Source: Lachnospiraceae bacterium
GTDB taxonomy: Bacteria > Bacillota > Clostridia > Lachnospirales > Lachnospiraceae
Length of the DNA: 35,578 nucleotides
NCBI GenBank assembly: GCA_022797535.1
Contig: JAAWKU010000018.1
Coordinates: forward strand, 1-35,578
Direction of reading: 5' to 3'
The notes under the pieces were generated by a model. That model saw only the letters and a list, made by a program, of their open reading frames with translations. It made no database searches and was not told the origin of the DNA. Below are positions 12,980 through 16,554 of this stretch, piece after piece. The position numbers and the translations under genes are program-made. Within the stretch, counting starts at the first letter, position 1. Each line of letters starts with the position of its first letter.

Positions 12980-14407
12980 ATGAAGAAAACCCTATATCTT
13001 AAATTTTTGTTGGCCTATCTGATTTTCGGTATATTCGGCCTGGTCATACTGGCCACCTTTGTGCCCAGCATGACCATGGAACATCTGATCCGGGAAAAAG
13101 CCAACTCCCTGTACTCGGAAGCCACTCTGATCGCCAATACCTATGCCAGAAACCTGTACAACAGCGAAATCTCCCTGGAAGCGGTGAAAAATCAACTGGA
13201 CGCCCTGGCCCTGTACCTGGATTCCAGCGTGCAGATCATCAATCCCTCGGGCCGTCTGATCCTGGACACCAATATGCCCATAGATGTGGAAAATGAAGTG
13301 ATTATCCAGGCCTTTGATCCCACCGTCACCGGTGTCTCCTTTTATGTGATAGACAATTTTTTTGACACCTATCCCCAGGATGTGCTGTCGGTGATCGCCC
13401 CTATTACCACCAATTATATGGTCAAGGGCTATGTGGTGATTCATATGGAAATGGCCTCCATCAATGAATCCTGCAACAATCTGTTAAACATCTCCTATGT
13501 GACGCTGATCATCCTGTTTTTGCTGTCGCTGATCATCCTGATCTTTTTTACGGAGATCGTGTATCTGCCCCTGCGGAAGATTACCTACGCTACAGAGCAA
13601 TATGCCTCAGGCAATATGCACTATGAATTTACTCTGGACAGCGAGGATGAAATAGGATATCTGGCGGCCTGCCTTTCCTATATGGCCAGCGAAATCGCCC
13701 GTTCCGAGGACGATCAGAAAAAATTTGTGGCCAATGTATCCCACGATTTCCGGTCCCCTCTGACCTCCATACAGGGTTATCTGGAGGCCATGCTGGACGG
13801 AACCATTCCCCCGGAACTCTATGAGAAATATCTGAATATCGTGCTGAATGAGACCCAGCGCCTGACCAAGCTGACCAACGGTCTGCTCACCCTGAACAAT
13901 CTCAATACCAGAGGAATGCTGCTGGATATCACGGATTTTGACATCAATCAGGTAATCCGCTCCACTGCGGCCTCCTTTGAGGGCACCTGCCTGAAGAAAA
14001 GCATTGCCATCGAGCTGATCCTCACCGATGACATCATGTATGTCACAGCGGACATGAGCAAAATTCAGCAGGTGCTGTACAATCTCATTGACAATGCCAT
14101 CAAATTCAGCCACCACAACTCCGTGATAAAGGTGGAAACCACAGAGAGGAAAAACAAACTCTTTGTATCTGTGAAGGACACAGGCATAGGAATCCCGAAA
14201 GAGGATTTAAAGCTGATCTGGGACCGTTTCTATAAATCAGACCTGTCCCGGGGCAAGGACAAAAAAGGCACGGGTCTGGGATTGTCCATCACCAAGGAAA
14301 TCATTCACTCCCACAACGAGCATATTAACGTAATCAGCACCCCCGGGGAAGGCACCGAGTTTATCTTCAGTCTGCCCCGGTCAGAAGAAAACGACGAAGA
14401 AGACTGA
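12980..14407 (+). CDS. Membrane sensor histidine kinase
   Basis: A 475-residue kinase. Transmembrane helix 1 spans about 9-29 and helix 2 about 172-192, flanking an extracytoplasmic sensor of about 140 residues with no recognised motif. A HAMP domain (about 193-245) and a HisKA dimerisation domain with phospho-acceptor His255 (VSHDFRSPLTS) follow. The HATPase domain has N box NLIDNAIKFS, G1 DTGIGI and G2 GTGLGLSI. It should phosphorylate the regulator encoded 14 bases upstream. Its last 41 bases overlap the convergent ECF S-component gene, so there is no intergenic terminator. Confidence 0.93.
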   Translation: MKKTLYLKFLLAYLIFGIFGLVILATFVPSMTMEHLIREKANSLYSEATLIANTYARNLYNSEISLEAVKNQLDALALYLDSSVQIINPSGRLILDTNMPIDVENEVIIQAFDPTVTGVSFYVIDNFFDTYPQDVLSVIAPITTNYMVKGYVVIHMEMASINESCNNLLNISYVTLIILFLLSLIILIFFTEIVYLPLRKITYATEQYASGNMHYEFTLDSEDEIGYLAACLSYMASEIARSEDDQKKFVANVSHDFRSPLTSIQGYLEAMLDGTIPPELYEKYLNIVLNETQRLTKLTNGLLTLNNLNTRGMLLDITDFDINQVIRSTAASFEGTCLKKSIAIELILTDDIMYVTADMSKIQQVLYNLIDNAIKFSHHNSVIKVETTERKNKLFVSVKDTGIGIPKEDLKLIWDRFYKSDLSRGKDKKGTGLGLSITKEIIHSHNEHINVISTPGEGTEFIFSLPRSEENDEED

Positions 14408-14918
14408 ACGCCTTTTTCACCGGGCGGTAAAGTACCAGCATCAATGTAAAATTCCCCACACAGTGCAGTAAATCATAGGGGATGCCTGCCACCCACCAGG
14501 TAAAGCCGGCGTAGAGGCCGGAGCGGAGGCCGCCGTTGAAGCATCCGTTGATCACATAGGGAATGGCACACAGCGCGCCGAAAAACAATCCGTAGAGCCC
14601 GGACAACACGGCCCAGAACAGCGCATGTTCCTGCCTTCGGAAAATCCATGCGGTCAGCGCAAGCAGCGGCCAGGCGTACAGGTACATGACCCACCAGATT
14701 CCGAAGCCGAACATGCAGCCCTCTATCAGGATAAAGGCAGGTATCACAAAGCAGATCTTCTTCCCCAATAAAATTGTGAACAGTATAATCCAGAAACTGG
14801 TCAGTTCTATATTGGGCAGTCCCATCATGGCTCCCTTACACACTTCTATCAGAGCGATGGCCATGCCTGTCATGGCTATGTCATATGTGGTATTTTTCAG
14901 TTTTATACCCTTCCCCAT
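14367..14918 (-). CDS. ECF transporter S component, candidate cobalamin-specific
   Basis: A 183-residue integral membrane protein with five to six helices and an N-terminal helix rich in small residues (MAIALIEVCKGAMMG), typical of ECF S components, the substrate-binding subunits of vitamin importers. No ATPase or EcfT gene is nearby, so it would use a shared group II energising module encoded elsewhere. It follows the DUF4430 gene with one base between TGA and ATG and lies under the cobalamin riboswitch, so vitamin B12 or a corrinoid is the likely substrate. That is inferred from regulation, not from binding residues. Its 3' end overlaps the histidine kinase gene by 41 bases. Confidence 0.82.
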   Translation of the reverse strand: MGKGIKLKNTTYDIAMTGMAIALIEVCKGAMMGLPNIELTSFWIILFTILLGKKICFVIPAFILIEGCMFGFGIWWVMYLYAWPLLALTAWIFRRQEHALFWAVLSGLYGLFFGALCAIPYVINGCFNGGLRSGLYAGFTWWVAGIPYDLLHCVGNFTLMLVLYRPVKKAFSLLRRFLLTGAD

Positions 14919-14919
14919 A

Positions 14920-15330
14920 TCACTTGCTGTATATGATCTGGAAAGCGTCGCCGTCTGTCACAGGCTGGGTCTCTATGCCGTAATTACAGTACTCCCCATT
15001 GACGAAAAAACCCCAGTAAGACTGGTCCACATTCCAGTCCGCAGTCACGCCGTTCACCGTGTCCACCATCATGCCATACTCACTTTCACTGCCGGAAAAT
15101 TCCAGCCCCTGCGCTTCCTCCATGGCCTGACGCAGATATTCCGCATCTGTTTGCAGATCATACATGGTGGAATCGCCATGGTTGTCCACCACTTCTATGG
15201 TGATGGATTTGGCTCCCTGGGTAGTTCCGGGCCGGAACAGGATAAACAGGATTGCGAATACCGCAACCAACGCTGCCAGCACGGCCAGCCCGATCATTAA
15301 TTTCTTGTCTTTCTTTTTTGCTTCTGTCAT
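14920..15330 (-). CDS. Membrane-anchored DUF4430 protein, candidate corrinoid-capture subunit
   Basis: A 136-residue protein with a Lys-rich N-terminus (MTEAKKKDKK), one membrane helix (about 11-32) and an extracytoplasmic domain of about 95 residues. It has no lipobox Cys, so it is probably an uncleaved signal anchor. The domain ends in the DUF4430 pattern YWGFFVNGEYCNYGIETQPV followed by DGDAFQIIYSK. DUF4430 is also found at the C-terminus of animal transcobalamin and intrinsic factor. ATG 15330 has AAGGAG eight bases upstream; a longer frame to 15453 runs through the riboswitch terminator. Position directly behind a cobalamin riboswitch and one base ahead of an S component suggests a B12 uptake role. 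Confidence 0.82.
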   Translation of the reverse strand: MTEAKKKDKKLMIGLAVLAALVAVFAILFILFRPGTTQGAKSITIEVVDNHGDSTMYDLQTDAEYLRQAMEEAQGLEFSGSESEYGMMVDTVNGVTADWNVDQSYWGFFVNGEYCNYGIETQPVTDGDAFQIIYSK

Positions 15331-15370
15331 TTTTATGACTCCTTTTGATTGTATTTGCATAAAAAGAGAC

Positions 15371-15413
15371 AAAAAAACTGCCGCATGAAAGGCAATACAC
15401 CCTCCCGCAACAG
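15371..15413 (-). terminator. Riboswitch expression-platform terminator
   Basis: On the minus strand CTGTTGC (15413-15407) can pair with GCGGCAG (15384-15378; two G-T wobbles), followed by seven Ts (15377-15371). It lies between the aptamer and the DUF4430 start, where a cobalamin-controlled terminator is expected. A ten-base stretch at its 5' arm duplicates the 3' end of the aptamer. Confidence 0.55.
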
Positions 15414-15494
15414 GTCCGCGCGTACAAAAAACAGATGTGAACACATCATCCACATTTTCCAGTGTACTAACCAGTTACTCGTGGTCTTACAGTA

Positions 15495-15722
15495 CCGCAA
15501 CAGGCAGGTCTTCTGACTTGGCCATCCACGCTTTCCTCCATCTTCTCAAAGCATGCCCGGGCAGAGGCTTCAATGATTTTCCTGTGGATTTCCCACTCAT
15601 AAACAGAGAAGTCCACAGGGGAGAAAAACTCCTTCCTTACAGCGACGAGTTCGTGCAGGATTTACACCTGCTTCCCTTTTCACCGGATCTTAAGACACCG
15701 CTTAAATCCGACACCTGTAACG
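15495..15722 (-). ncRNA. Cobalamin riboswitch (B12 element)
   Basis: Read on the minus strand, the region carries the conserved cobalamin aptamer core: GGTGAAAAGGGAAGCAGGTG, then AATCCTGCACG and CGCTGTAAGGA between about 15690 and 15630. The 3' B12 box TCAGAAGACCTGCC is at about 15504-15517. The overall span of about 228 bases fits the family. It is located 165 bases upstream of the DUF4430/ECF gene pair, with a terminator hairpin between. When cobalamin is bound, expression should fall. Exact ends are approximate. Confidence 0.92.
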
Positions 15723-15748
15723 TTTTTTTATTCCTTTATGCAAGTGGA

Positions 15749-15777
15749 AGTTTACCATATGTGAGGTTTAAATGCAA
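15749..15777 (-). promoter_or_regulatory. Promoter of the riboswitch-controlled operon
   Basis: Minus-strand TTGCAT (15772-15777), 17 bases, TAAACT (15749-15754), with the predicted transcript start near 15742, about 20 bases ahead of the aptamer. Spacing and position fit well. Confidence 0.6.
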
Positions 15778-15780
15778 GAA

Positions 15781-15802
15781 TAAAATACATCCCCATGGGG
15801 AT
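15781..15802 (-). terminator. Possible terminator after the nuclease-like gene
   Basis: A perfect 14-base dyad (ATCCCCATGGGGAT, 15789-15802) followed on the minus strand by an AT-rich TATTTTA stretch. The dyad has almost no loop, so the real stem is short and termination is uncertain. Confidence 0.35.
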
Positions 15803-16554
15803 CATCGTCCTCCCTCTCTGGTTTCATACAGGTATGCCTGCCCTTTTTTGCCTGTGTGTTCCATCATTCCATAGTATTGGTACAGTTTGATGGCCAGGCT
15901 GGCCAGACGGTCATTGATACGGGCGGCCCGGGCAAACTGTTTTACAGTGAAAGGTTCTTCCAGCTCCAAAGGAATGAACTGCATCAGATCCTCCGGCCGC
16001 TCGATAACAATTTCCTCTATAATATCCAGAGGGATACGGTCATATTTGGAGGCCCGGATTTTTTTATCTTTTCCATAGCCGTTTAACAGCTTATATTCTT
16101 CCAGTTCCAGCAGCAGCAGCTTTACTGTAAGATGCCGGTCCGCCAGGTAATCACGGATCCGATATAATTCCAGAAAAGAGTCGTAAGCATTACCTTTTTT
16201 GGGTGATCTGTGAGGAGCGCTGAGAGCGCCCGTATCCTCATCGATCCAGATCAAACGTTTTATATGAGGGATGGGATGAACGATGGTCACCGGATATTCC
16301 GGCAGAAAAGCCTCCAGCTTATCCCGCATCTTGCCAAACCCGGCAGACTGAATCTCTATAATCTCCTGTCCCGTAAAGATATCCGCCACATAATTGCCGA
16401 TGGGTACTTCCTGCTTATCCACATCCGGCTCATAATAGTTTTTCAGGACCATATGGGTGGTTTTCTCTGACAAAGTACCGATGCTGGCCCGAAGCCGTTC
16501 TTCCCCCAGCACCTTCTCCTTCGCTTCCCGGAATCTCTGCTTCTGTTTATCCAT
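15802..16554 (-). CDS. Unrecognised protein, possible PD-(D/E)XK-like nuclease with C-terminal winged helix
   Basis: A 250-residue soluble protein I cannot name. Residues about 30-100 resemble a restriction-endonuclease-like core. Glu49 precedes the segment NYVADIFTGQEIIEIQSAGF, which places Asp58, Glu67 and Gln69 like the D...(E/Q)-x-K/Q pattern, followed by basic residues (GKMRDKL) and a strand VTIVHPIPHIKRLIW. Residues about 200-245 (FTVKQFARAARIND, ending YLYE) look like a winged-helix domain, suggesting DNA binding. GAGAGGG lies just upstream of ATG 16554. It is followed by the B12 riboswitch unit and preceded by a 22-base palindrome. The nuclease reading is a hypothesis. Confidence 0.65.
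   Translation of the reverse strand: MDKQKQRFREAKEKVLGEERLRASIGTLSEKTTHMVLKNYYEPDVDKQEVPIGNYVADIFTGQEIIEIQSAGFGKMRDKLEAFLPEYPVTIVHPIPHIKRLIWIDEDTGALSAPHRSPKKGNAYDSFLELYRIRDYLADRHLTVKLLLLELEEYKLLNGYGKDKKIRASKYDRIPLDIIEEIVIERPEDLMQFIPLELEEPFTVKQFARAARINDRLASLAIKLYQYYGMMEHTGKKGQAYLYETREGGR

Follow-up and report, generated by a model that had tools for sequence, protein, structure and literature searches.

Bacterial proteins of the transcobalamin clade are generally encoded with CbiO-like and CbiQ-like genes, according to the 2007 analysis that named the superfamily (Burroughs, PMC1796856), and their hosts usually lack key enzymes of vitamin B12 synthesis; scavenging of B12 or of its precursors was proposed there. 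CbrT of Lactobacillus delbrueckii, an S component of an energy-coupling factor (ECF) transporter, binds cobalamin on its own at a nanomolar level and also takes cobinamide, and the complete ECF-CbrT takes up cobalamin in an ATP-driven manner; the word DUF4430 does not occur in the main text of that paper (PMC5997447). In a third report, a proteome table gives K8Q211 of Lacticaseibacillus rhamnosus the name "Additional lipoprotein component of putative cobalamin ECF transporter," and the text mentions a DUF4430 protein whose gene lies near rtpR (PMC9963975); we guess that both refer to one protein. In the open literature searched, we found no experimental study of B12 binding by a bacterial DUF4430 protein. 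Here, we describe a unit from a gut bacterium of the family Lachnospiraceae (GenBank assembly GCA_022797535.1, contig JAAWKU010000018.1, positions 1 to 35,578; these 35,578 nucleotides are referred to as the window), in which a cobalamin riboswitch precedes a gene for a DUF4430 protein and a gene for a CbrT-type S component (Table 1). The kind of system is already known as a prediction; what is new is the near-obligate partnership of DUF4430 and CbrT homologues, the toroid-free, membrane-anchored form, and a regulatory tendency.

Table 1. Features of the riboswitch-DUF4430-S component unit, in window positions
Feature	Position	Strand	Evidence or remark
Cobalamin riboswitch aptamer (RF00174)	15486..15733	-	cmscan 87.9 bits (gathering score, 31.5), E = 1.3e-20
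Terminator-like hairpin (15378-15413) with U run (15371-15377)	15371..15413	-	Lies after the riboswitch and ahead of the first gene; probable expression platform
136-aa single-pass membrane protein with DUF4430/transcobalamin-beta-like domain	14920..15330	-	ATG at 15330, stop at 14920
N-terminal membrane helix of the DUF4430 protein (model residues 9-32)	15235..15306	-	Hydrophobic segment and structure model
DUF4430 match	14926..15129	-	Profile search
183-aa ECF S component, CbrT homologue	14367..14918	-	Profile match to 6fnp and fold

The first gene encodes a protein in which the PF14478 profile has a match with an E value of 5.9e-9 (36.7 bits; curated cutoff, 23.8), in agreement with the DUF4430 assignment made in a first-pass annotation of this DNA, and the same profile matched 53 of 53 proteins of our set A3 at an E value of ≤0.01. 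The protein has one hydrophobic segment, at the N terminus, in keeping with the description of a single-pass membrane protein whose DUF4430 domain would lie outside. In the structure model, a helix (residues 66 to 72) precedes two strands (78 to 83 and 86 to 92), and comparison of the model shows that the domain shares the fold, and the fold only, of the transcobalamin beta domain, which supports the likeness to animal transcobalamin that had been drawn earlier. Transcobalamin, haptocorrin, and intrinsic factor (beta domains in 2bb5, 4kki, 2pmv, and 5np4) differ from the present protein in that they have a toroid half, whereas here a membrane helix takes its place and the partner is a membrane S component. 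The alpha/alpha-toroid is absent from the DUF4430 protein and from the two-gene unit; the rest of the genome was not searched for toroids. Another of the closest known systems is 3u7z, RUMGNA_00854 of Ruminococcus gnavus, which is titled a putative metal binding protein. A GTG start at position 15453 was rejected for the DUF4430 gene: it extends the frame into the leader, and the ATG, which is preceded by AAGGAG, is preferred.

The second gene begins one base past the stop codon of the first. Its product had been called an S component by direct family assignment, which is too strong, as no Pfam or NCBIfam family matches it at an E value of ≤1. The identity itself is supported: positions 7 to 177 of the 181-position profile of the protein align to residues 5 to 175 of CbrT (6fnp; E = 6.9e-16), the only PDB sequence found at an E value of ≤10, and a second profile gave an E value of 1.7e-16 against the same structure. 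The structure model likewise has the ECF S-component fold, with 10% identity to 6fnp in the structural alignment. The riboswitch and the DUF4430 partner distinguish the present locus from ECF-CbrT of L. delbrueckii. By analogy with that transporter, we infer that the S component transports cobalamin with an Ecf module.

The DUF4430 gene and the S gene tend to occur together in other genomes. Among the 101 genomes of the genus sample (own genome included), the S gene was found in 51 and the DUF4430 gene in 52; 50 genomes have both, 1 has only the S gene, 2 have only DUF4430, and 48 have neither (P = 3e-25 by Fisher's test, with relatedness not removed). In 48 of the 51 places, DUF4430 lies within 3 kb upstream of the S gene on the same strand. 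Three places are exceptions. In G025, 11 bases separate the end of the S gene from a contig end, and DUF4430 lies near the end of another contig; in G062, the S match is a fragment; and G002 has the riboswitch and DUF4430 side by side on one contig (L052:3149-3868) and the S gene on a different one (L053:3428-4000). The G002 S gene adjoins a histidine kinase gene, and both partners are kept though apart.

The partnership extends beyond the genus sample. Of at least 585 relatives confirmed among named genomes, the best 80, chosen by the S gene alone and including some members of the genus sample, all carry DUF4430 within 300 bases upstream of the S frame (80/80). In the class sample of 391 genomes, the S component had a match at an E value of ≤1e-6 in 66 genomes and below 1e-20 in 41. 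DUF4430 occurs somewhere in 36 of these 41 genomes versus 136 of the other 350, and it stands beside the S gene at 34 of 40 strong loci (the window's own left out). At the weaker class loci (25, of which 11 were examined), 5 of the 11 had a DUF4430 profile match at an E value of ≤0.01. A plasmid of Lactobacillus intestinalis carries in a row nrdJ, DUF4430, the S component (E = 5.9e-63 against 6fnp), and a cobalamin adenosyltransferase gene (L214:2282-5977); nrdJ encodes an adenosylcobalamin-dependent reductase, and the row reads as a B12 import-and-use cassette. On plasmid pMF1298-5, genes for EcfT, an ATPase, an S component (6fnp, E = 1.8e-9), a 350-amino-acid protein, and a DUF4430 protein are consecutive. 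At L181:97-4124, the order is a MetH-like gene, then a cobalamin riboswitch, then a lipoprotein-like gene that matches no Pfam family, and then a CbrT homologue; the lipoprotein may be a diverged DUF4430.

The anchor of the DUF4430 protein appears to vary. By eye, the partners at L036, L037, L038, L040, L041, and L042 seem to carry a lipobox and not a membrane helix, and the S component of this L036-L042 branch is ∼30% identical to that of the window; lipobox and helix seem to be two tethers for the same domain. Automatic sorting of anchors (lipobox in 23 and helix in 126 of 149 proteins) made visible errors both ways and was not used. K8Q211 of L. rhamnosus, a lipoprotein by name, and the DUF4430 protein near rtpR point to the same kind of partner (PMC9963975), whereas the unit described here has a membrane helix and a riboswitch. 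The SLBB operons of the 2007 analysis resemble the present unit in that a surface SLBB/DUF4430 protein is encoded next to ECF components by genomes reported to lack B12 synthesis genes, and they are unlike it in having toroids and multidomain proteins (PMC1796856); the present unit is toroid free. An example of such operons, L189:2790-8101, has a toroid gene, a gene for a 290-amino-acid DUF4430 protein, a 299-amino-acid gene, and a gene for an 812-amino-acid protein that combines an S-component domain with two ABC matches, and it reads as the fuller form of the system; the 299-amino-acid gene, which is in the EcfT position, has no Pfam match at an E value of ≤1e-8.

The host assembly of 3.54 million bases is 93.75% complete, and within it the B12-binding domain PF02310 matches at seven places, six of them over the cutoff; the best place (L027) has two such domains. 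EcfT (PF02361) has one match, adjoining truA and two ECF ATPase genes that score 392 bits for ECF_ATPase_1 (TIGR04520; cutoff, 315) and 389 bits for ECF_ATPase_2 (TIGR04521; cutoff, 330), so the shared EcfAAT module that had been postulated is present elsewhere in the genome. A fragment of the first ATPase (L034) matched no Pfam family; the whole genes scored over the cutoffs. No match was found in the assembly to CbiD, to CobS, or to the FecCD (BtuC-type) permease, for which the control was positive in 13 of 14 genomes; the last result agrees with the earlier proposal of B12 import without a BtuF-type binding protein. Given the B12-binding domains, the one Ecf module, and the missing CbiD, CobS, and FecCD, the host looks like a cobamide user that lacks BtuFCD and can neither synthesize the cofactor nor complete it. 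The DUF4430-S pair is the sole B12 import candidate found in the genome.

Together, these results make it probable that the unit is a cobalamin or cobamide uptake device of a bacterium that uses B12 without making it, with riboswitch control, CbrT-type import, and capture or capping by DUF4430. When the cofactor is scarce, the riboswitch would let transcription past the terminator, and adenosylcobalamin would repress the unit. The S component would bind the corrinoid at its outer face, powered by the EcfA1-A2-T of the genome, as its homology to a proven transporter suggests. The anchored DUF4430 domain, outside the membrane, would capture the corrinoid or cap it on the S component, and the two proteins would do the job that BtuF does elsewhere. 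BtuFCD likewise imports cobalamin with an outer capture protein (here proposed), but its proteins are unrelated. The observation made in the first-pass annotation is thus confirmed, and its interpretation is partly supported and was in part anticipated in print.

A more specific arrangement is tentative, and we rate it at somewhat below an even chance: the unit may be a split transcobalamin, in which the S component replaces the toroid half. The DUF4430 domain would hold the corrinoid on one of its faces and would dock on the outward-facing cavity of CbrT only when loaded, so that the ligand is sandwiched as it is between the alpha and beta domains of transcobalamin. This arrangement fits the reported cobalamin-induced assembly of transcobalamin halves. 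Alternatively, the S component may take up cobalamin alone, with DUF4430 as a structural partner. In favor of this reading, CbrT by itself binds nanomolar cobalamin, and ECF-CbrT transports it with no DUF4430 in the main-text account (PMC5997447). The closeness of the pairing would also suit a subunit. We consider uptake by the S component alone unlikely.

The leader and its distribution bear on both regulation and substrate. The RF00174 match covers model positions 1 to 189 and is the sole gathering-level match of cmscan within the window; at an E value of ≤0.001, it is the one match across the whole assembly. A hairpin of ≤-11 kcal/mol with a T run, less than 200 bases past the aptamer, was found in 15 of 17 homologous leaders, which are relatives and not independent, versus 11 of 102 control windows from other parts of the same loci. 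This leader anatomy points to control by transcription termination. The gene beyond the S component (12980-14407) is on the + strand, with its 3′ end overlapping that of the S gene; since this neighbor lies on the opposite strand, the unit comprises two genes, and the earlier reading of a B12 riboswitch ahead of just two genes is borne out.

Homologous pairs elsewhere had been expected to be tied to B12 riboswitches. The outcome is mixed: a riboswitch lies upstream of the S gene in 37 of 51 places of the genus sample (counting one in G082 that is 0.4 bits below the gathering score and is treated as present in all the comparisons that follow) and at 14/40 class loci, 4/17 named loci, and 0/2 Lactobacillaceae stretches; because Infernal was run with its stricter filters, weak riboswitches may have escaped the survey. 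The genus loci without a riboswitch are mainly in genomes with CobS: a riboswitch precedes the S gene in 32 of 34 genomes without CobS versus 5 of 17 with it (P = 2.7e-6, with relatedness not removed). With CbiD as the marker, the proportions are 33/37 without and 4/14 with it. The CobS rule was derived from these genus data themselves. Of the 17 named loci, L075 and L098 come from genomes of the genus sample and 15 are new; CobS is present in 0/4 riboswitch genomes and 13/13 others; ten of the latter 13 are Butyrivibrio or Pseudobutyrivibrio and hence related (L077, L079, L089, L094, L106, L124, L126, L132, L142, and L144; no gathering-level RF00174). Other cobalamin riboswitches of the genus sample, at L057, L058, L059, L060, L064, L065, and L068, lie by eye near rows of lipoprotein, permease-like, ATPase-like, and CobQ- or CbiD-like genes.

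To account for relatedness, we used a tree of 65 S components, on which CobS changes 12 times and the riboswitch 9 times. The G062 fragment was left out, L075 and L098 were represented by G047 and G094, and G025, counted as riboswitch free in the genus CobS comparison, was set as riboswitch bearing given the contig break between its S and DUF4430 genes. Supported branches yielded only seven independent pairs. On average, the riboswitch and CobS changed in opposite directions in 4.2 of these and in a shared direction in 0.0, and the riboswitch did not differ in 2.8 (P = 0.125 at the median, with values from 0.0625 to 0.625). The relation is therefore a regulatory tendency, consistent in direction and not significant on the tree.

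The CobS-bearing genomes also bear on a further alternative, that the substrate of the pair is a different corrinoid or a building block of B12 (cobinamide, alpha-ribazole, or dimethylbenzimidazole) and not complete cobamides. CbrT accepts cobinamide as well (PMC5997447). CobS is present in 17 of the 51 S-bearing genus genomes and the riboswitch is missing in 12 of these 17, which may therefore have a different substrate. The window's own genome has no CobS or CbiD match, and a precursor should thus be of little use to it; it also has six PF02310 places over the cutoff. We regard import of such compounds in place of complete cobamides as improbable. That the pair is a relic or unrelated to corrinoids, with the riboswitch adjacent by chance, draws little support from the 50 of 89 genus riboswitch matches that lie elsewhere and from the pairs without one, and it is scarcely credible given the linkage, the CbrT homology, and the nrdJ and adenosyltransferase neighbors.

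We also compared codons of the two genes with those of the closest relatives (L003 and L004) and then with farther rows, as raw tallies without a rate model. Codons with synonymous changes only versus those with amino acid changes numbered 31 versus 5 (L003) and 63 versus 32 (L004) for the S gene and 20 versus 7 and 40 versus 38 for the DUF4430 gene. The synonymous excess weakens or reverses with farther rows (DUF4430 against L006, 40 versus 59). Upstream of the riboswitch, the window has a 250-amino-acid frame (15802-16554, - strand) with no Pfam family at an E value of ≤1 and an NCBIfam match below the cutoff.

To our knowledge, the ECF transporter class is held to need no binding protein. 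Most close CbrT homologues examined have DUF4430 beside them, a domain that folds like the half of the human carrier in which the ligand is held. If the split arrangement is true, DUF4430 would be a half-carrier that serves an ECF S component as a tethered binding protein, and it would plausibly correspond in bacteria to the animal carrier. If the link between the riboswitch and missing CobS holds, it would be of help in predicting which gut species rely on other organisms for B12. If DUF4430 binds corrinoid and aids CbrT, tethered binding proteins would have a place in ECF transporters, and a living counterpart of the animal B12 carriers would exist in bacteria.
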